Origin: a virus
IMG/VR virus record: IMGVR_UViG_3300042868_005761
Coordinates: 112,232-176,231 of that record
DNA: 64,000 nt
Strand: one strand, 5' to 3'
The translations under genes were made by a program, and so were the position numbers. Shown here one piece after another: positions 36,532 through 52,800 of this stretch (the first letter of the stretch is position 1; each line of letters begins with the position of its first letter). The notes under the pieces were generated by a model. The model saw nothing but the letters and a program-made list of their open reading frames with translations, did not search any database and had not been told where the DNA came from.

Positions 36532-37818
36532 TTAGTCAGGGAACTGAGTGCTAACCGGAGAAGCACCAGGCACCGCTGCAAGGAACTCGCCATCCGTAAT
36601 ATTGTAGTAAGGACGCGCAATCTCAGGAGCGTAGAAGTTCTGATCGCAGAAGATATTCTTAAGCGTAACAAGACCCTGACCTTCGTTGTACATGAAAAGA
36701 CCCCACTTCTCTGACCACTTCATCTTGAAGGTCTCGAAATACTTATCCTCCCACTCATCAGCAACAATACCTGAACCAACGATTAGAGCACCAAGTGACT
36801 TGCTATCGCAAAGAACGATATCGGTAAGCTTAGTAGCAGGATCGTAAGGCATGAAGCGTGAGGTCACAATGCGGAGACCGAACGGAAGGCCAAGGGGAAG
36901 CTGGGGAGCCGCCGTAATAGCATTGACGTTGAAGTCCTTAAGCGAGGCCTTGGAGCTATCGGCACCAGTACCAAGCTGGCCGCGTGAATAACCCTTTGAA
37001 AGAACACCCTTAACGGCGTCAGGAACACCGCTAACGTTAGCGGCTGAACCCGAGTAGCTACCAAAGAGATTGCCGCTGCCGCTCTGCATTGCAAATGCAC
37101 GAAGGACGGGGTCGCGAACAAACATAAGGTAAGTAAGAGGATGGCAGATTAGCGTATCAGGCGTAAAACCTCTCTGAATGAGAAGGTGATAAGCGTTGAA
37201 AAGATCATCCATGGTAAGAGTACCATTGGTCTTCATCTTGATGTCACGACCAGTCGTGATGCCAAGAGCTGACTGAGTAGGATTAAGATTGTCAAACGCA
37301 GGAACGCTGATGTTCGTGATATGCTTAGCGATTTCGGTCTCCTTGCGGCGAGCGAAAGCACGACCAGCCTCACGGGCAAGGTAACCAAGGAGATTCCAGT
37401 TGGAAGCCTTGATAGCCTCTTGCGTAAGGGAGATCATAACACCCCACTTGTCGATGGCGGCCGTAGCCATACCACCGCCAGTTGTCACACGCTCTTCACG
37501 GTAGCCTTCAAGCTCAGTGACCTTATGGACAGTGAAAGCTGAAAGGGCGGGAAGGCGGAACTCAGTGATACCATCCGGTGCAGGAATGGTGTCAAGGAGT
37601 GGAGTTAGCGTGAGCATAGGCTCCATGGGCTCCATCATAATCTCAACAATTGAGTGCTTGACCCAGGGCCCAAGCTCAGCTGATGTAATCGCGTCTTCGA
37701 TTGAAAGACGTGAATCGCTGCTATGGTCTGAGCCAGGAAGCCAACCGTTGTTCTTGATGAGCGCTGTAAGCTCACTCTGATCAGCAATTTCTAGGTTCTT
37801 ATGCTTTAGTCTTGACAT
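36532..37818 (-). CDS. Major capsid protein, 428 aa
   Basis: Position after the protease gene, a strong ribosome site (AAGGAG), its own terminator and a GC-richer codon use all point to the major head protein. The sequence has the expected HK97-fold features: an N-terminal helical arm (residues 1-60), an E-loop-like stretch rich in charged and Thr/Gly residues (R-E-E-R-V-T-T-G-G-G), a spine helix (residues ~145-170, R-E-A-G-R-A-F-A-R-R-K-E) and a C-terminal beta region with V-T-S-R-F-M-P. There is no long delta domain, which agrees with a separate core/protease protein. Family identity is by pattern; a structure prediction would settle it. Confidence 0.8.
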   Translation of the reverse strand: MSRLKHKNLEIADQSELTALIKNNGWLPGSDHSSDSRLSIEDAITSAELGPWVKHSIVEIMMEPMEPMLTLTPLLDTIPAPDGITEFRLPALSAFTVHKVTELEGYREERVTTGGGMATAAIDKWGVMISLTQEAIKASNWNLLGYLAREAGRAFARRKETEIAKHITNISVPAFDNLNPTQSALGITTGRDIKMKTNGTLTMDDLFNAYHLLIQRGFTPDTLICHPLTYLMFVRDPVLRAFAMQSGSGNLFGSYSGSAANVSGVPDAVKGVLSKGYSRGQLGTGADSSKASLKDFNVNAITAAPQLPLGLPFGLRIVTSRFMPYDPATKLTDIVLCDSKSLGALIVGSGIVADEWEDKYFETFKMKWSEKWGLFMYNEGQGLVTLKNIFCDQNFYAPEIARPYYNITDGEFLAAVPGASPVSTQFPD

Positions 37819-39460: not shown

Positions 39461-40309
39461 TTAGACTTTCACATCTAGTGGGTTAAACTTTCCTGAAATA
39501 AAGCCAGAACGCACTTGTTGAACAAGATAGTTCTCAGCTTTATTTATATCATGATTTCGTAATTCTTTGTATTTACTAGCTACTCTAAGTTCTACAGATG
39601 TCCAGTATTCTGGTGTAGTATCTATTGCGTCTTCAATAGTATTCACATCAAGCTTCTTACCAAGCTCCTTAGGCTCAGCAGAATCTTCAATAATAATCTC
39701 TTCTGACTCTGAACTATCGGCAGCCTCAGTTGTCGCTTCTTCTGAACTATCGGCAACTTCAGTTGTCGCTTCTTCGGCCGAATCCATTGGGCCACTCATT
39801 TCTTCTTCAATTTCCTCACCGGGAGATTCACTTGGAATTTCCATGCCAGCAGTCTGAAGAGAAGAGCCAAGTTGCCATTGCCACTTTTGATGCATATCAA
39901 TGCGCTCAGCTACAAAGTTTGCAATACCTTGCTCATTAGCAGAGTTAGCCATGTCAAAGACATTCTTAAGCATAGCAATCATCACTACATTCTTCTTGTA
40001 CATATCAAGAGCAAGTTCACTTGCCTCAGTGGTCATAGAGTCATCTTTAATTGATGCAGTCTCGACCATGTAAGTAAGAGAGTGAGGAAATGAACCAAGC
40101 TTGCGGATATTCTCAGCAAGTGGATCTACTGAACTAGAGTAGATGTCATCATAGATATTCCCAAATAGCTCATGATACTGGGCAAAGTCAGGGCCAGCCA
40201 CATTCCAATGTGCACGATGTGCAGTAGAGTACATAGCAATTACATTACTAAGTAAGCCCTTAAGAGCATCAGCTACTTGAGCTGGGCTAGTTGTCATTTC
40301 AGTTTCCAT
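39461..40309 (-). CDS. Dps-like ferritin with acidic tail, 282 aa
   Basis: Residues 10-150 match the Dps/ferritin-like fold. The signature H34-W-N-V-x-G-P-x-F and Y-H46-E-L-F, then V-D62-P-L-A-E66-N-I-R-K-L-G, keeps the ferroxidase ligands equivalent to H51, H63, D78 and E82 of E. coli Dps; the D67 position is Gly50. Dps proteins oxidise and store iron and bind DNA. Residues ~170-215 are an acidic tail with a tandem 11-residue repeat (A-D-S-S-E-E-A-T-T-E-V/A). The last ~65 residues are basic and helical. GGAGG precedes ATG. It lies between the core protease and the capsid-adjacent gene, so it may be a head component; this is inference. Confidence 0.75.
   Translation of the reverse strand: METEMTTSPAQVADALKGLLSNVIAMYSTAHRAHWNVAGPDFAQYHELFGNIYDDIYSSSVDPLAENIRKLGSFPHSLTYMVETASIKDDSMTTEASELALDMYKKNVVMIAMLKNVFDMANSANEQGIANFVAERIDMHQKWQWQLGSSLQTAGMEIPSESPGEEIEEEMSGPMDSAEEATTEVADSSEEATTEAADSSESEEIIIEDSAEPKELGKKLDVNTIEDAIDTTPEYWTSVELRVASKYKELRNHDINKAENYLVQQVRSGFISGKFNPLDVKV
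39711..39776 (-). repeat. Tandem 33-bp repeat inside the Dps-like gene
   Basis: Two 33-base units (39711-39743 and 39744-39776) differ at only a few positions and encode the 11-residue acidic repeat. The units keep the reading frame, so copy number could change without breaking the gene. Confidence 0.9.
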
Positions 40310-40376: not shown

Positions 40377-42791
40377 TTAGCCACCTATACCAGGAGAAGG
40401 ATACGCGCCAAGGGGAGGAGTCTCTTTCTTACTCCAGACAATAGGAGCCATAATCTTTCTTAGTTCAGACCTCTTCTTGACAGTTACTTCTTCAGTCTTG
40501 TCATATAAGCCATCCTCACCCATCTTAGCAATAGTAAGAATAGTAGCAGGATCTTCCTCTGATGCATCTACACTTAAACCAGGACCATGAGTAACAGTTC
40601 CTTTGCTATGCATAGCATCAATGACTCCATATCCTTCTTTCATTTCAGCTGCGTCGTCTTGCTCACCAAGTGAACCTGAACTAACACCAACTTCATTACC
40701 CTTGCTATCAAGGCGATAGGAAACAAAGTCACCTACAGCAAAAGTTGGCGTTGACGGAGTTGTATAAGTTTTCTCAGGAGTATAAGTATCTTCGACTGAA
40801 GACTTAAAACTTTCCTCAATGGCAGTCTCAACAACTGGCTCATTGTAAACAAAGTCACCCATAACCCAAGGACCCTTAACTGAATCTTCAGTTCTCATAC
40901 GTTCAATTTGTGCAGCTTTGGCATTTGCCCAGCTCTTGCCGCCATCACCACCCCAAAGATCCCAAGCAATACGACCAGGAGAGGGAAAGCCTTCTTCGCC
41001 TTGGTTGAAGCCAGAAGCCTTCTTGTCAACCTCATGACGTGCAAAGAAACTCTTCATACGCATAACGGTAGAAGGAGAAAGCTCTTTCTTGTTCATAATG
41101 TCTCTAGCGCGAGCTACTCCAACGCCGGTACCACCGCGCTTGAACTCTGCACGCCACTCAAGGGCACGCTTAGCAGCTGAAGCCATACCAGGTGTTGGAA
41201 CAAATCCCTCAGCGGCATCATCAATAGTAATAGTTTTTACCATCTCAGAAAACATTTCAGCCGACATATCGTCAGCTAACTCCAGATTGAAATTACTAAC
41301 TAGTAACTTCTTGATAGAGTCTAATAGTGATTGGCTATCAAGCTCAAACTTTGCAAGCTTCTCGTCTGCGATAGCTTTGCCAGATCGTAGTTCTTCAAGC
41401 TCTGCAATTACCTCAGGAGCAGGAATAGATTTTAATTTAATGTATTCGTCAACAATTGAAAGAATTTCTTTCTTATTGTCTTCTGATAGTACGGTGGGCA
41501 TTTCTTGCTCCTCTTGATTAATTAAGTTAGTTTGGTCTTCCATAGGCTCTGTTTTGTTTGCAGAAACTAATCCATCTGGGATAACAGCAAATCTGCAGTA
41601 ACCATCAGGCTCTATAGTTTGGGAAATAATTTTACAACGATTTTCGCTAGCATGAAGAGCGCAGTTGCCGCACTTAACGCCAATACTGAGATTCTCATTC
41701 TCTGGGCCACTTTCATAGCCAACCCAAATACCAGGAGCCTTATCAAGAGGTCCAACTTTATTAGCAAGAGTCATCAGTGAGTCAGCTAGAGCCTTTTCCT
41801 CTTCTGAGAGTTGACTGTAAAGATCAACATAATCGTCTGCTATTTCGACTGGCACTGTCGCAACAGGACCATTGTCAAAGCTAGCCATAATCTCTGAGTC
41901 GCTAATATCAGTAACCGCATTCTTAAAGCAATCGGTGACAACCATAGTAGTCTTGAAGTTATCTAGGTATTGCTGAAGAGCGTCGCCGCCAACCTCTTTG
42001 TAATTCATTACTCGTGCATGAACATCAGCAGGATGTGTAACGTAAGCATAGCCACGATAGCGAAGACCGCTTGGGACGCCATAGGCTTTGGTCCCATCAA
42101 TATCGTCGCCAATGTCCCATTCCATCTCATCAGTCTTGTAAGACTTACCGCTAATAGAATCGTAAAGATCATTAGGAGTCATTTCAACACTAACTGTAAG
42201 ATAGCGCCCATCAAGAGTTTTCTCTACAGCCTCTGGATCTGTAACAAGTCCCTTGACAAGTACCCATCCAAGGCCCTCAAAATCCTCATCGGTCATCATT
42301 CCAGACTTGGCAAGCTTCTTCATATAGGGAGCCATAGCAACGTCAGGAGCCTTAAGTATAAGGCCATCCTTGATCATTGTAGAACTAACATTATAAGCAG
42401 CCTTAGGGTTGTCTACCCAAGTCCCACCCATGGCACGACCAACTGCACCAACCTCTCTATTCTCAATTTTCTTACCATCAACAATAGCAACTTCCTTATG
42501 CATAGGTTTAATAGGAATATTGTATGGACTAGTAAGTGTAGGAATTGCATCTTTTAAATCAGATGGCATATAGATAAGGTTATTCTGAGTAGGTCTCATA
42601 CCGTGAGTAACCTTTGTAAGAGTTACTAGACCAACCTTGTTCTCTGCCACGCCATCACTAATAAAGTATTTAAAATCAAGAAAGTGTGGGCTCTTCTTAT
42701 CCCAAACTTCATGGGTAAAATCGCCCTTAATACTATTAACAAAATAGTCCTGAACAATACCTTCTTGTAATAGTCTCTTACTTATCTTCAT
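40377..42791 (-). CDS. Composite prohead protease / core protein, 804 aa
   Basis: Residues ~1-270 resemble head-maturation Ser proteases: P-M-H98-K and V-T-D-P-E-A-V ... G-R-Y-L-T-V-S201-V-E-M supply a likely His/Ser pair. Residues 374-399 (C374-x2-C377-x8-C386-x12-C399) form a HiPIP-like or zinc module common in large phages. Residues ~430-560 are a charged helical scaffold-like region, and residues ~565-670 have the conserved R-G-G-T-x-V-G-V-A-R-A ... S-F-F-A-R-H-E-V-D-K domain. The C-terminus (~740-804) has V-G-D-F-V-S-Y strands. The fusion suggests one precursor that is scaffold and protease together. The start overlaps the MuF gene by 14 bases. The catalytic residues are inferred. Confidence 0.7.
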   Translation of the reverse strand: MKISKRLLQEGIVQDYFVNSIKGDFTHEVWDKKSPHFLDFKYFISDGVAENKVGLVTLTKVTHGMRPTQNNLIYMPSDLKDAIPTLTSPYNIPIKPMHKEVAIVDGKKIENREVGAVGRAMGGTWVDNPKAAYNVSSTMIKDGLILKAPDVAMAPYMKKLAKSGMMTDEDFEGLGWVLVKGLVTDPEAVEKTLDGRYLTVSVEMTPNDLYDSISGKSYKTDEMEWDIGDDIDGTKAYGVPSGLRYRGYAYVTHPADVHARVMNYKEVGGDALQQYLDNFKTTMVVTDCFKNAVTDISDSEIMASFDNGPVATVPVEIADDYVDLYSQLSEEEKALADSLMTLANKVGPLDKAPGIWVGYESGPENENLSIGVKCGNCALHASENRCKIISQTIEPDGYCRFAVIPDGLVSANKTEPMEDQTNLINQEEQEMPTVLSEDNKKEILSIVDEYIKLKSIPAPEVIAELEELRSGKAIADEKLAKFELDSQSLLDSIKKLLVSNFNLELADDMSAEMFSEMVKTITIDDAAEGFVPTPGMASAAKRALEWRAEFKRGGTGVGVARARDIMNKKELSPSTVMRMKSFFARHEVDKKASGFNQGEEGFPSPGRIAWDLWGGDGGKSWANAKAAQIERMRTEDSVKGPWVMGDFVYNEPVVETAIEESFKSSVEDTYTPEKTYTTPSTPTFAVGDFVSYRLDSKGNEVGVSSGSLGEQDDAAEMKEGYGVIDAMHSKGTVTHGPGLSVDASEEDPATILTIAKMGEDGLYDKTEEVTVKKRSELRKIMAPIVWSKKETPPLGAYPSPGIGG

Positions 42792-43290
42792 TAGCCTTCC
42801 TTATAATGACTTTGCTATTAGGATGATCAGGCGGTAAATCATAATACTTACTATCTGAGATTTTTCTATTATCTATTATAGACTGACTACTTTGATTATA
42901 TACCTGGTATGATTCTTCGCCGCTATCCTTTAACGCATTGAAAACACCCCAGTTATAACTTCTCATTCTTTCTGTCTCATAGATAGTCATCATCCTATGA
43001 CCAATAGTCTTAGCTGTGTCAGTTATAGTATTGCCTTGCCGATTGCGCATCTCAATATGTAACTTATCTATAAAGAACTTCTGAACCTTCAACTGGAATT
43101 CTATGTTGCCAGTATGAGTCTCATTAGTTAAGTTAGAAGAGTCAGCATACTCAGAGTAGCCTTTTATATAAGCCTTAATACTGTTATCTTTGAGCATAAC
43201 AGAGAAACGCTCAAAAGCGGCATCAACGGTAAAATTAGGCTGAACGTCGTAGTCAGCCTTCTCCTTGAGATGACTAACTAATCCATTCAC
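42778..43290 (-). CDS. MuF-like minor head protein, 170 aa from GTG, or C-terminal domain of a portal fusion
   Basis: The motif M-T-I-Y-E-T-E-R-M-R-S-Y-N-W-G fits the R-T-E-x-x-R-x-x-N-x-G core of the Mu gpF/SPP1 gp7 head-morphogenesis family, which is often next to or fused with the portal. As a separate gene its only start would be GTG at 43290, with GAGAGGA only one base away, a poor spacing. The frame is open upstream through 45 more codons to the A10 tract at the end of the portal gene, and a -1 shift there would join them. The extra segment is Asn/Ser/Gly-rich, like a linker. The fused form is therefore preferred. It ends 14 bases inside the protease gene. Confidence 0.65.
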   Translation of the reverse strand: MNGLVSHLKEKADYDVQPNFTVDAAFERFSVMLKDNSIKAYIKGYSEYADSSNLTNETHTGNIEFQLKVQKFFIDKLHIEMRNRQGNTITDTAKTIGHRMMTIYETERMRSYNWGVFNALKDSGEESYQVYNQSSQSIIDNRKISDSKYYDLPPDHPNSKVIIRKANEDK

Positions 43291-43412
43291 ATCCTCTCGA
43301 TATTCATCAAAGTCTAGGATACTGTTTGTAACTAGACTTCCTGGCCCACTTTTTGTGCCATGTTGATTTGATGGTCTAACGGCATTTGCATTAGCTTTAC
43401 CGCTAGGAGACG

Positions 43413-44942
43413 CTATCGAATTTTTTTTTTAACAGCAGGTTTCTCAGAGGACTTAGTAGCCATCTTATTTTGTAATTCTCTTGCCTTGTTTAGATCAGAA
43501 GAAGACATAGGTGTTTTGTCACTTCTAGCAGAGGTTTCTGCAATAGGTGACATTGCGTTAGCTCCAAGTTTCAATAGCTCTTGGGCCTCTGTAATCATCT
43601 TGTAATAAGAGTGATCCCAGTCATCTTCCTGAGCAGCAGAAAGACCAATACGATCTCTGAGTTCATCATGACTAATAGCACTATTCAACCAAAGTTGAAT
43701 TGCTGCATTCTCTTTCTTTATTTGGTTCTCAACATCTATCTCTTTGAATCTTAAAGCAACTTTATTATCTGGGTCTAGCCAGTCAAAGCTATTCTCTTCG
43801 GTGCTTTCTTGTAAAAGAGGAACAATCAAATGAGCATAGATTTGTTCCTCGAAAACAAGCTGATCACTCTTTACTGAGTTGATAAGACTACTAGACATAG
43901 TAGCAGCGGTTGATCTGTTAGCTGTATCGCCTTCTCCAATATCAACAGTAGATAAACCAAGTGCAGCAAGAACACGCTTCTTGAAATAATCAAGGTAGCC
44001 CTCTGCTCTAAGCGAACGACCTTCTGCTCCAATCATTTTAATTTCATGACGCTCAGGGGTAACAAAGAAACCTTCAGGAGGTTGGTTATTAATAACCTCA
44101 GTAACCATACTAATCTCATCTCTACCGTCTGGTAGAATAGTAGCAGGCATAGCGTCAGTGCCAATCTTGTACTGGACAATTGGAAAGATACTTTGGTGAA
44201 GTAGAACTTCTACATCTGTTTCAATGCGACGCAAAGCTTTGATATCTTCAATTGCTGCGCTGCATCTTGGAGTACCAACAATAAAACCTTCAAGCTTGTT
44301 AACATGAAAATGTATGATCTCACTAGGCTCATATACAGTAGTAGGACGAGTATTTTCCGTCCAGTCCTCTTCGCTGTATTGTCGATACTTTATGGGTTGT
44401 TTAAGGTCGTTGACCTTAACCTGGATCATACTGGTAGGAAGTACATGAAGTGAGCTAATTGGGGCTATCTTGCGCCCTTTAGAGTCTGTTCTAGTATAGC
44501 CACCAGATGTCTTGTCATTGCGTTTGACGAGAACAAAACAATTACTATATCTAATGATATTCTTGGCTATGTCAGTTATGAATTGGCGAGGTGTAGTCCG
44601 GCTGACATAACAAACTTCCTTCAAACGGCGCTCTATGTACTCTACAAGATCTCGGTCTTTACCTATAATCTCGTAACCTTCTTTCATAAATAAAGATAAC
44701 TTTTTGTCAAAGCTAATTTGCAAGTAAGCTTCAATGGTGGCAATCTTGTCTATCTCTTTAAAGTCATGCTCTAGCTTTTGCCAGTCATTCATAAAGTATG
44801 GACGAGTTGTTCTATAGTTAAATACTGGATCTTTTGTTCTTTCTAAACTTGGCGCAGGTATCTTACTCTCCGCATCATCTATTGTTTGAATAGAAGATGC
44901 AAGATTCTTTAGATTAATAACTTGTGCTTTTAATTTAAACAT
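43413..44942 (-). CDS. Portal protein, 509 aa
   Basis: The pattern is that of a tailed-phage portal: an N-terminal wing with repeated helix pairs (A-Y-L-Q-I-S-F-D-K-K), a stem-region I-I-H-F-H-V-N-K, then G-T-P-R-C-S-A-A-I-E-D, and the long helix near residue 345. It forms the dodecameric gate for DNA at one capsid vertex and binds the terminase. It overlaps the upstream gene by eight bases. Length is normal for portals without a MuF domain. The last codons, V-K-K-K-I-R, are encoded by ten A residues followed by TTCGATAG, an efficient slippage context; a -1 shift would replace the tail I-R with 215 residues. Confidence 0.9.
   Translation of the reverse strand: MFKLKAQVINLKNLASSIQTIDDAESKIPAPSLERTKDPVFNYRTTRPYFMNDWQKLEHDFKEIDKIATIEAYLQISFDKKLSLFMKEGYEIIGKDRDLVEYIERRLKEVCYVSRTTPRQFITDIAKNIIRYSNCFVLVKRNDKTSGGYTRTDSKGRKIAPISSLHVLPTSMIQVKVNDLKQPIKYRQYSEEDWTENTRPTTVYEPSEIIHFHVNKLEGFIVGTPRCSAAIEDIKALRRIETDVEVLLHQSIFPIVQYKIGTDAMPATILPDGRDEISMVTEVINNQPPEGFFVTPERHEIKMIGAEGRSLRAEGYLDYFKKRVLAALGLSTVDIGEGDTANRSTAATMSSSLINSVKSDQLVFEEQIYAHLIVPLLQESTEENSFDWLDPDNKVALRFKEIDVENQIKKENAAIQLWLNSAISHDELRDRIGLSAAQEDDWDHSYYKMITEAQELLKLGANAMSPIAETSARSDKTPMSSSDLNKARELQNKMATKSSEKPAVKKKIR
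43421..43430 (-). other. A10 slippery tract (candidate -1 frameshift or transcriptional slippage site)
   Basis: Ten consecutive A residues on the minus strand sit 6 bases before the portal stop codon. In the portal frame they encode K-K-K; a -1 shift, or one extra A in the mRNA, continues into the MuF-like frame, which is open from the tract onward. A sequencing error in the homopolymer gives the same result, so raw reads are needed. Confidence 0.65.
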
Positions 44943-47670: not shown

Positions 47671-49809
47671 TTATTTAATTGTTCGACCACTTGGTCTTTG
47701 ATAATTGTGACGAGAATTAAATACTGGAGCTATTGCTTGTCCCATATTTCCTTTCCCATCTCTAGTAACAATCATATCTCTTTCCCAAGCTCTTCTATCA
47801 AGGTCACTGTAGTGTTCTGTTGTTTTTTGGTAAGGACCAGTACCATTTTTTCTGCTATCTATAGCAGAGTTCCTTTCATTTTGCAAGTGCCTTAATAACT
47901 CTCCACCTGTTAATCTCTTAGCATGGGGATCTTGATTTTGTTCACTTAGAATTGAATGTCCAAGTGTTTCAGTTATTCCAAAGCTAGAAACCATATTCTT
48001 AGAAAGAGCCATTGGTCCTTCTTCTATAGTAAATGCAACAAGACTAAGCATAAATGCGTCAAGTGCGTGATCTCCAATACTTGTATTGTCTTGTCCAAAT
48101 ATAGGAGTTCCGTTTGGCTGACGAGACTTAATAATGTAGTTAAGTAATTGTTTTCTAAGCAAATCATCTTCAAATGAAAACTTAACAATCTTATCTTCAA
48201 AACGTCTGACTGCATTTTCTACTAGAAATGGCTTAGCAGGATGTTCAATTAGACGACCAGTAGACGGTTCTCTTATTGAGATTTTGCTACCAAAGTCATA
48301 TGCCTTAATCTTTCTCTGGACATTGAATTCATATGTTCCCGCTTTTTGCTGAGAAGACCACATCTTCAATGTTTCCCACTGAGTTGCTCCGTGACCTTTG
48401 TCAACGTAGATATGTTGTGGTTGCCAGAAACTAAGTAGTTCTGTTATTTTCTGTAGACCTTGTAGCTGAGTAAAGTTTTGCTTTGGTACGTTTATGATTT
48501 CCATTACCTGCAGACCAATCTGAGGATGAAATCCTGTAATGCATATCCAAGTACCAAAGCTAGTATTCCAGTCAACTCCAAGACTAAACCTAAAGCTAGA
48601 TAACTCTCCTTGCATCTTGGCTTCTCGCATTTGGCCGTAAGAATATCCTTCCATTGCACTAGTAACCAGAGGAGCAGCAAATACACCATCAGCATTACTA
48701 ATAAACATTGCCATAACTTCTTGTAACCAACCGTCACTAGTGTACTCTCTTCTCATTTCATTTCTAAGAGATTTCCAGTTAATCTTTGTCTGGGCAAAAG
48801 GTGTTTCGTCAATAACTGCTGTTGGGAAATAAAACTCTTTCCAATCTGGAGCCTCTTGGCACCACTCATAAAACTTACTACGAAGACCACTAGGAGTAGA
48901 AGCAACGCGAATTAGACAATCACTATGAGACTGAGCAATAGGTAGGATTGTTGTGAAATCCTTTTCGGTCATATAGTCGACCTCATCAAGAATTATAACG
49001 TGTGCGTCTTGACCACGAACTGCGCTAGCTCCATTGCTACCAGTAGTAAATCCAGAGATAATTGCACCGTTTTCTAATCTTATCTGGTGATAGGGAGATT
49101 GCTTATATCTAAATTCTTTTTTCAAACTAGAGTTACCATTAAGCAATTCAAGTATTCTGTTAAATATAGCTGTTACCTGAGAATCGAATGGGCAACAAAT
49201 AAGAATTTTAATTCCGTTGACATTCTCTCTTATTTCCTCGTCAAAGTATTCCCGGACTCTAGTAAAAGCATGAAAAAGTATCTCAATGGCAAGTGCATCT
49301 GATTTACCAGAACGTCTTCCAAATCTAAATACTTTCTTCTTGCTCTGACAACGAAGAGCAATCTCTTGATGTGCCCTAGGTTTCCATCCAAACATTTTGC
49401 TTGCAAATGTAACTGGATCAGTATTAATAACTAGCGCGTCCTTCTCTTCAGGAGAAAGTTCACTAGCAAACTCTGAATATTGCTCTAGATAATTCTCAGG
49501 AATTAAAGGACAACTAATCTGAAAAGGATGTGTAGCAAAAGCTTTAGGATCAGCTTTAACTTTCCTTTTACTTTCAATAGGATGGGTAGAATAGTCTTTC
49601 TTGTATTTTTCAATATGAGAGACTTGACAATTCTCACAGCCAGAAATACACTTAGCTCCAGACTTGGTTTTAGTTCTTAGTCCGTAGCTTTCAATGTACT
49701 CAGTAATTACACTCTTAGAAATTTTAGTCCAATAGTCCACATAAGATATGTCCGAACTCTCGGTGTCTACTTTCTTGTATAGGTCTTCTATTCTAAGTAT
49801 TTGATTCAT
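47671..49809 (-). CDS. terL: Large terminase subunit, 712 aa
   Basis: This is the ATP-driven DNA packaging motor and headful nuclease. In the 712-residue form the Walker A motif is G164-R-R-S-G-K-S170, Walker B is I-I-L-D275-E276, and the nuclease domain has V-D413-W-N, Y-V-D470 and a C-terminal D-H-A-L-D. N-terminal C54-x3-C58-x2-C61 and C100 form a possible metal site not usual in terminases. I chose the ATG at 49809 because it begins one base after the previous stop, which suits coupled translation; a longer form from 49878 (735 aa) would overlap the previous gene by 68 bases. No strong ribosome site precedes either start. Confidence 0.9.
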   Translation of the reverse strand: MNQILRIEDLYKKVDTESSDISYVDYWTKISKSVITEYIESYGLRTKTKSGAKCISGCENCQVSHIEKYKKDYSTHPIESKRKVKADPKAFATHPFQISCPLIPENYLEQYSEFASELSPEEKDALVINTDPVTFASKMFGWKPRAHQEIALRCQSKKKVFRFGRRSGKSDALAIEILFHAFTRVREYFDEEIRENVNGIKILICCPFDSQVTAIFNRILELLNGNSSLKKEFRYKQSPYHQIRLENGAIISGFTTGSNGASAVRGQDAHVIILDEVDYMTEKDFTTILPIAQSHSDCLIRVASTPSGLRSKFYEWCQEAPDWKEFYFPTAVIDETPFAQTKINWKSLRNEMRREYTSDGWLQEVMAMFISNADGVFAAPLVTSAMEGYSYGQMREAKMQGELSSFRFSLGVDWNTSFGTWICITGFHPQIGLQVMEIINVPKQNFTQLQGLQKITELLSFWQPQHIYVDKGHGATQWETLKMWSSQQKAGTYEFNVQRKIKAYDFGSKISIREPSTGRLIEHPAKPFLVENAVRRFEDKIVKFSFEDDLLRKQLLNYIIKSRQPNGTPIFGQDNTSIGDHALDAFMLSLVAFTIEEGPMALSKNMVSSFGITETLGHSILSEQNQDPHAKRLTGGELLRHLQNERNSAIDSRKNGTGPYQKTTEHYSDLDRRAWERDMIVTRDGKGNMGQAIAPVFNSRHNYQRPSGRTIK

Positions 49810-49810
49810 A

Positions 49811-52800
49811 CTAATAAGATAGCATTGAAGACGTTCCATATATAGCAGTTGAACCTGAGTATCTTGCTTTTGGAGCACTCATCATATAACTTTCATTGCC
49901 TATAGCCTTCATTGCATTAAACCTTGAATTCTCCATTGCATTTATAGCTCTTTGCCTGACACTAGCTCCAATAGAACTTGACATTCCTGGTGTAGGCCCA
50001 CGGTTCCAAGAGATACCACCCATTCTACCTGACCTAATGTAGTCAGCGCCTTTATTCCTAACGTCAAAGACTTTGAAAGCAGTATATCCTGCGGCTGCTG
50101 CAACGGCACCACCAGTCAAGCCAATTGTCGGATTAAGAAGAGCTCCAGCAATAACTTTATTCTGTACCAGTCCAGTGGCAATACCAAGAGCTGTATTACC
50201 TACTCCTCCTAGTACACCTGACTGTCTATATCCTGATTTAAAATCTCCTATTGCGCCATAACCCATTAAAGCAGGAGCAATCATTGTAGACAGACCACCT
50301 GCCTTAACAAGTTGTTTATTCAGCCAACCATCACCAACTGAGTCTAGTAATTTAAAGCCATGATAACGTGCTCCATGGAAAAATTTAGCTATGCCAGTCG
50401 ATCTGCTGTGAGAGGTTGTAATGTAATTCTTCCAGCCTTGATACGCGTCATCAAGATTATTTGCGACTTGCCAAAAAGCCTCATCGGCGCGATAAACTGG
50501 ATGTACGTATCCAGATGTACCAAGAGCTTTACCAAAGAATGAGTCTAGGAAACTTGAAGGTTTGCCGCTTGGATCAAACCCACCAATTCTTCTGTTCAGT
50601 CCAAAGTCATTGATAACAGACCCGATACCAGCAAAGAAGCCTCTAGTAGTTAGATCTAGTTCGCCTTGAATAAATCTACTATTGTAGATTCTCGAACCAG
50701 TATTCCTATTAATTGTGCCACCACCTGGTCCGGACATAATATTTCCTAGTACACTTGGAATTTTGGCTGCTTTAGCTCCCTTATAGGCTGCAATACCTAA
50801 TCCTGTTGCAACACCTATCCCTCCTATTATAGCAGCGCCTGTTATCAGGGTAGAAGCTAATCCTCCCCCGCCACCTGCTGCTCCCGTCGCAGCAGAAGCT
50901 ACGCTTGGGAAAGCTGCTGCAGCCGCTCCTACGGCAATGCCTATTCCAAGGCCTTTTAATGATTTAAGTCTTCTTATTCTGTCAGGAGTAAGTTTAAATC
51001 TAGCTTTAATTTCTTTTTCTGCGGTTTGCAGTATTTTTCGAGACTTAGCGTTATCAGATCTAGAATGAAAATTTAAAGTTCTAGGCCTATCTAAGTGTCC
51101 AAATGGAAGTCCAGTTTCTGGGTCATTTTTTTTAATACCTAGCATCTTCGTAAGATGCTCCCGGGCCTTGTGTGGCTGTGAAGCTTCTTGAGTTCCAAAA
51201 AATTGTCTAAAAGTTTCAAAGAATGAAGAAATTTCTCTAGTTCTTCCAAGTGGGGTAGCAGCATCTCCGTTTGATGGAAATGCTTGTTGAATTTCTTTTA
51301 CAAAAGGATGACTAGGATGAGTACTATTTAACTGTTTGTACCCCCAGTCAAAAAAGCCATTGCCTCTGCTTAAGGCAAAACCTATATCCTCTGGAGTACC
51401 CTCTTCGCTTATAAGATAGCCAAATTCCGTTCCTACCTTCATCTCTCGTTGATGAGCGCCATTTCCAACGCAAAAATTGCCACCATATTTAATATTTATT
51501 GCATTAGCTCCTATTTGGGCTTCTTCAGCCGTGGCTAATCTAAGCTTTAATTTTTTACCTAAAAATTCACCAGAAGTTTCAATCTCTCTAGGCATATTAG
51601 TAGAAACATCGGTAGGAAGACCCGCTCTTAACCCAATCCAAGAATCTACAACATCATTTATATTTTTAATTCCTCCTAAAATACTTTGTTCATTCTTGCC
51701 CTTATTTTCAAAATAATAACTTAAAAATTGCCCATACCCACCAGCAAGAAAAGGTTTAATTGCAGCAGCTACCTCTCTACTAGTTGAGGCATCTATTTTT
51801 CCCATAATAGGATGCAGTCCTTCTTCAACCGCAGCCATTGCTGAGGGTGATTTAAATAAAAAATCTTGTAGTCCTGGGCTTGCACTAGGAAGAAAATGTG
51901 CAGCAGCAAGGTCTACGTCAGAAACACCTATAAAATCTCTACCAGTTGCGAGAGAAGTTCTATTTATCAAAGAATCCCCTGGAGATTTGCCAGCCCGTAA
52001 AGGCGCAGGCCTTCGACCTGCTACTGCTCCTATATCCCATTGGGAATCCGTAACTGAAGGTAGGACTTCTCGATCGCTAAAACCTTTCAAAACAAAAGGT
52101 AAATTTTTTCCCTTAACAAAAGGAAGTATAGCCTTGATTTCTCCCGGTAAAGAATCAATATTTTGTCCAATTTTATTTGCTCTTCCAGCAAAGTCTGAGA
52201 ATTCCATGAGAGAAAGATCTATTTGTCTACTCTCAGGTACAATTCCGAAAGCTTTAGCTTTTTTTGTTCTTTCTGGAACAGCTGCTGCAGTTTGAGACCA
52301 CTGAAGCAAGTCCTCATCTGTCACCGGAGTTTGCCAATATCTTTTTGCTGCTTTTAATTCTTCAGTATGATATGTTCTGCCTAAATGCTCAGCTTTTAGA
52401 GTCAATCCAACAGGTAACGCAGGAATTCTTTTTTCTGCAGTGCGAGGGTAGTCAAGTAACGCTTTTCCTGCATGATTTAGGCCAGCTCCACCTTCATCAT
52501 ATATCTGATCACTATTAGAAGGATCTATATATTCAAAAACTTTCATTACCGCTTCCATAGCGGGTCTATCATGGTAATCTAAAATAGCATCTGACATTCT
52601 CATGACTGGATTTGGGTCACCTAGTCCAGCAGATGAAATAGAAAACCTTGAAGTTTGCTTAAACGCGGTGTCATTAAAATGATACAAGGCACTAAAAACT
52701 CTATCCGCAGTTAAACCTTCTTCAGCCATCATAGGCGCAAATCTACGCCAATTTATTTCAAAATTGTTTCGAACGGATTGTCCATTTATCTGACCTGCTC

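Follow-up and report, generated by a model that had tools for sequence, protein, structure and literature searches.

Portal proteins joined to a MuF domain are known from phages that encode both parts in one unbroken open reading frame (ORF). Moorella phage MTATph1 and Bacillus phage KLEB27-3, cultured phages whose portals are sequence relatives of the portal studied here, carry the portal and then MuF in one polypeptide (653 aa and 716 aa, respectively), and Microbacterium phages of clusters EA and EB have the same arrangement (PMC7302621). In these phages, MuF is present on every portal copy and there is no A10 tract, whereas here the fusion would be gated by such a tract. In phage SPP1, the portal protein gp6 brings a few copies of the MuF-type protein gp7 into the procapsid, as we propose here, but gp6 and gp7 come from separate genes and bind non-covalently, whereas the link at the present locus would be covalent and made by slippage (PMC6316719). 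Recoding is also known in phage virion and assembly proteins. Gene 10 of T3 and T7, the head protein of Lactobacillus phage A2, SPP1 gp17.1*, and lambda G/GT each yield a minority C-terminally extended product at a set ratio (PMC5009743, PMC6316719). Those are capsid, tail, or chaperone genes with ribosomal shifts at other sites, and neither portal nor MuF is among them. In tssM1 of Citrobacter rodentium, as here, a poly-A run lies just before the stop codon, and one added A leads into a C-terminal domain, giving two protein lengths; the shifted product amounts to 20-25%, and both forms are needed (PMC4256274). Unlike the present case, tssM1 is a bacterial type VI secretion gene, its run is A11, and its slippage is experimentally proven. 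The literature searched, which lay mostly outside subscription journals, yielded no case of a recoded portal gene. The kind of recoding is known, and its use in a portal gene appears new within that literature.

The window analyzed here is a 64,000-nucleotide stretch of viral DNA (positions 112,232 to 176,231 of IMG/VR record IMGVR_UViG_3300042868_005761). Comparison of its sequence with relatives suggests, with a probability of roughly 0.8, that the portal gene makes both a plain portal and a slippage-made portal-MuF, most likely via RNA-polymerase slippage. The features concerned are:

47671-49878: terminase, near the portal gene
43413..44942, minus strand: portal gene, frame 0 (PHROG 9232 portal, residues 53-498, E 1.7e-36)
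43421..43430, minus strand: A10 slippery tract, three AAA Lys codons and the A of ATT
42778..43428, minus strand: -1 frame, stop to stop, 216 codons, entered when the mRNA gains one A or the ribosome shifts by -1
43342..43377, minus strand: RPSNQHGTKSGP (NQHG) motif in the -1 frame, a portal C-terminal or junction motif of distant relatives
42796..43299, minus strand: MuF-like domain (hhalign, AlphaFold2, Foldseek), a helical bundle and a beta hairpin, Cys pairs lost
40377..42791, minus strand: gene after the MuF frame, ATG at 42791, 804 aa, PHROG 2859, function unknown
36532-37818: major head protein, near the portal gene

The portal assignment rests on a profile match across the portal fold and on the terminase and capsid genes close by; the match to Pfam PF04860 (E 6.5e-7, 29.3 bits) is below the curated cut-off of 39.1. 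The first 14 nt of the 804-aa gene are also the last 14 of the MuF frame. Between this gene and the capsid genes, a Dps/ferritin-like protein is encoded at 39461-40309 on the minus strand (PF00210, E 3e-11; PHROG 3636 'DNA binding protein'). As the preliminary description had stated, the portal gene ends through the A10 tract and the -1 frame is open down to 42778. The portal ORF ends in GTT AAA AAA AAA ATT CGA TAG. The stop codon preceding the -1 frame is a TAA whose T directly precedes the tract and whose two A's are the first of the tract; the -1 frame must therefore be entered inside the tract.

Normal decoding would give a 509-aa portal with the C-terminus ...PAVKKKIR* and its stop just past the A10 tract. 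RNA polymerase would most likely add one A to some transcripts, so that the remainder is read in the -1 frame. From the frames and arithmetic, the shifted product would join portal residues 1-507 to 214 residues carrying the NQHG motif and the MuF domain, 721 aa in total. The predicted fusion junction reads ...PAVKKK-NSIASPSGKANANAVRPSNQHGTKSGP..., and the predicted junction peptide is ...KKKNSIASPSGK. The plain portal would also lack the RPSNQHGTKSGP motif, because the motif sits in the -1 frame past the tract. Deletion of one A gives only a short tail, which is not conserved. We infer the slippage itself, its chemistry, the product ratio, and a ring of mixed portal forms from these sequence relations.

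The evidence for slippage begins with the conservation of the tract. The MuF frame is present at 19 IMG/VR loci, which stem from about 18 metagenomes and fall into two clades that are about 67% identical in MuF; they thus represent few independent events. Exactly A10 stands at the same place and in the same codon phase in 19 of the 19 relatives, and A11, which the preliminary description had equated with a plain fusion, is found in none. All ten tract columns (10/10) are invariant, compared with 12 of 60 (20%) in the flanks, and the linker around the tract has diverged. Such constancy of length and phase between diverged relatives is expected of programmed slippage. The three Lys codons of the tract are always AAA, and elsewhere in the portal 44% of Lys codons are AAA. 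No other homopolymer of any base reaches nine in the 176,231-bp record; the next longest are five T8 runs. Dinucleotide shuffling gives a mean of 4.4 A9 sites per window, so such sites are not rare and the tract length alone proves nothing. Four related records have no A9 run besides the portal tract, except for one extra A9 in each of two of them, and two fused relatives have no run of nine A's. The feature beyond chance is the conservation of the tract, not its length. A search of IMG/VR for an independent run of at least eight A's just before an NQHG motif gave 20 loci at short spacing and 3 more at the native spacing, and no portal-MuF junction was found among them. A second A9 run (G004:C1:60054-60062) in the relative L173 falls within a 693-aa ORF without an assigned role and may be another slippage site.

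The -1 frame is under strong purifying selection from the tract onward. The first start codon available in it is the GTG at 43290. Clade 1 has a dN/dS of 0.06 from the tract to this GTG and 0.05 beyond it; the values for clade 2 are 0.12 and 0.09. Counted in the same way, the two remaining frames appear free of constraint. The 45 codons upstream of the domain had been described as a linker; within them lies RPSNQHGTKSGP, a strongly conserved motif found at the portal end or at the junction in relatives. Motifs of the NQHG type (NQHGTKSGP in many) are kept in very distant portals, with or without MuF.

The MuF-like core proposed earlier in this frame gains support from profile and fold comparisons, with the refinement that its Cys pairs are lost. 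The domain has no direct Pfam or PHROG match. In a profile-profile comparison against the C-terminal domain from 19 relatives with in-frame fusions, hhalign gave 99.4% and E 6e-22. Some fused relatives match Phage_Mu_F below its curated cut-off (E 0.008 to 0.12), and some match PHROG head-morphogenesis families, down to E 2.2e-6. The sequence of the -1 domain thus appears homologous to MuF indirectly, by way of fused relatives that match MuF weakly to moderately. The AlphaFold2 model of the domain has a mean pLDDT of 81 and is good outside the linker; by Foldseek, the predicted fold matches models of viral minor capsid and head-morphogenesis proteins, and comparison with the PDB gave no informative match. 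Many MuF members carry Cys pairs and an HPxC motif; here Ser and other residues take their place, but LPPDHPNS is kept despite the Cys loss. The nearest fused relatives, L063, L064, and L066, show the same loss. No second MuF copy was found, and a search of cultured phages and of bacterial and archaeal genomes for the MuF frame found none.

RNA-polymerase slippage adding one A is the probable route to the fused product, a ribosomal -1 shift is the less likely one, or both may operate. The polymerase is favored because all ten A's are fixed while a conserved Shine-Dalgarno-like site or RNA structure is absent. In bacteria, avoidance of A/T runs commonly sets in at nine (PMC1088944), one-base insertions prevail in A/T runs, and +1 A is favored in A runs (PMC5574713). 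We searched for a phage-encoded multi-subunit RNA polymerase and found none. The same two products could arise by a ribosomal -1 frameshift on A_AAA_AAA inside the tract without stimulators, which we regard as possible but clearly the weaker reading. The heptamer is present in the correct phase, and some frameshifts of tailed phages work without a stimulator (PMC5009743). Codons for conserved Lys and Ile/Asn include the first, second, and tenth A, and the invariance of these three positions is thus not strict evidence against the ribosomal heptamer. Against the ribosomal route, ten A's are fixed and not merely seven, and the usual, although not obligatory, stimulators were not seen: no Shine-Dalgarno-like site upstream of the tract and no pseudoknot or stem downstream of it is conserved in the relatives. 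L017 is the only relative with a strong predicted stem just past the tract (L017:4009-4109, z -4.07).

More distant relatives place the tract in an evolutionary context. A portal-family profile brought in more than 60 further portals at 33-44% identity, and most of them have portal and MuF in one ORF without the tract. Many of the in-frame fused relatives have an NQHG-like motif at the junction, and none has a homopolymer of at least eight near it; the junction motif of KLEB27-3 is NQSG, not NQHG. ME3 and L026 have no MuF. The portals of L102, L110, and L118 end about 44 residues past the NQHG motif and are followed by the next head gene; MuF was not seen in any frame at these loci, which are apparent losses of MuF. 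No hidden MuF in another frame was seen behind the truncated portal C-termini of relatives. L073, L075, L087, L094, and L115 have longer portal ORFs ending in a shared CVxxVKxxLRKKNPxMSEDxxKxxAFxIC and not in the usual MuF end. In the portal tree, the split forms make up one clade with support 100, nested within the fused forms, which amounts to one change; therefore, the fusion is ancestral and slippage is derived. In the simplest history suggested by these sequences, an in-frame fusion would have acquired the slippery tract once and then kept exactly ten A's. Conservation of the tract, selection on the -1 frame, and these in-frame fused relatives together support the portal-MuF fusion via slippage put forward in the preliminary description.

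Since in-frame fusion is the norm among relatives and slippage-rescued genes are known (PMC1088944, PMC4256274), it is conceivable that only the fused form matters, the tract being a tolerated frameshift corrected by slippage and the plain portal a by-product. We consider this doubtful. A single-base insertion would be enough to recreate the plain fusion, yet neither A11 nor any other length occurs in the two diverged clades. Homopolymer runs mutate readily, and the constant length of the tract thus suggests selection for both products, an argument that leans on this general mutability.

It is highly improbable that MuF is made separately from an internal start, although a purine-rich stretch lies shortly before the GTG at 43290 in the window. 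This GTG is GTA in L009 and L016 and is missing in clade 2, and the next common start lies inside the domain. Across the 19 relatives of both clades, we found neither a conserved start before the domain core in the -1 frame nor a separate MuF gene that has a start and ribosome site of its own. Because 43 conserved codons, the NQHG motif among them, precede the GTG, they could hardly be made except by fusion. The earlier view that the downstream frame has no good independent start holds, as selection starts at the tract; a downstream frame that is under purifying selection without its own start is what programmed slippage predicts. Homopolymers are error-prone, but a sequencing or assembly error hiding a plain in-frame fusion, or a decaying frame, is scarcely credible: all 19 records, drawn from about 18 metagenomes, have exactly A10, and the MuF frame is under strong purifying selection.

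With a plain portal and a slippage-made portal-MuF, the portal ring would be built from a mixture of both, and a few MuF domains would be carried covalently into the procapsid, their number per ring being set by the slippage rate. Whether selection keeps an exact slippage ratio, giving each portal ring a small mean number of covalent MuF domains, we judge to be an even bet. Portal rings are dodecamers. In a randomly assembled twelve-fold ring, a fused share of 25% corresponds to three MuF per ring, with about 3% of rings lacking MuF altogether, and at a fused share of 5% more than half of the rings are without MuF. A low fused share leaves most rings without MuF, and therefore the useful shift rate is likely high, as a matter of arithmetic, not data. 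A high useful rate also favors polymerase slippage.

How many MuF-type proteins are required by a portal, and for what reason, is hard to test when MuF is separate or present on every subunit. This lineage of large uncultured phages seems to swap 'all copies fused' for 'some copies fused', and the ratio would be set by ten bases and could be altered through single-base changes. The portal would join the structural genes that use recoding, and annotation will call such a portal truncated and its MuF missing. If the proposal is true, portal stoichiometry would be set by RNA-polymerase slippage in a lineage whose relatives carry MuF on every portal copy.
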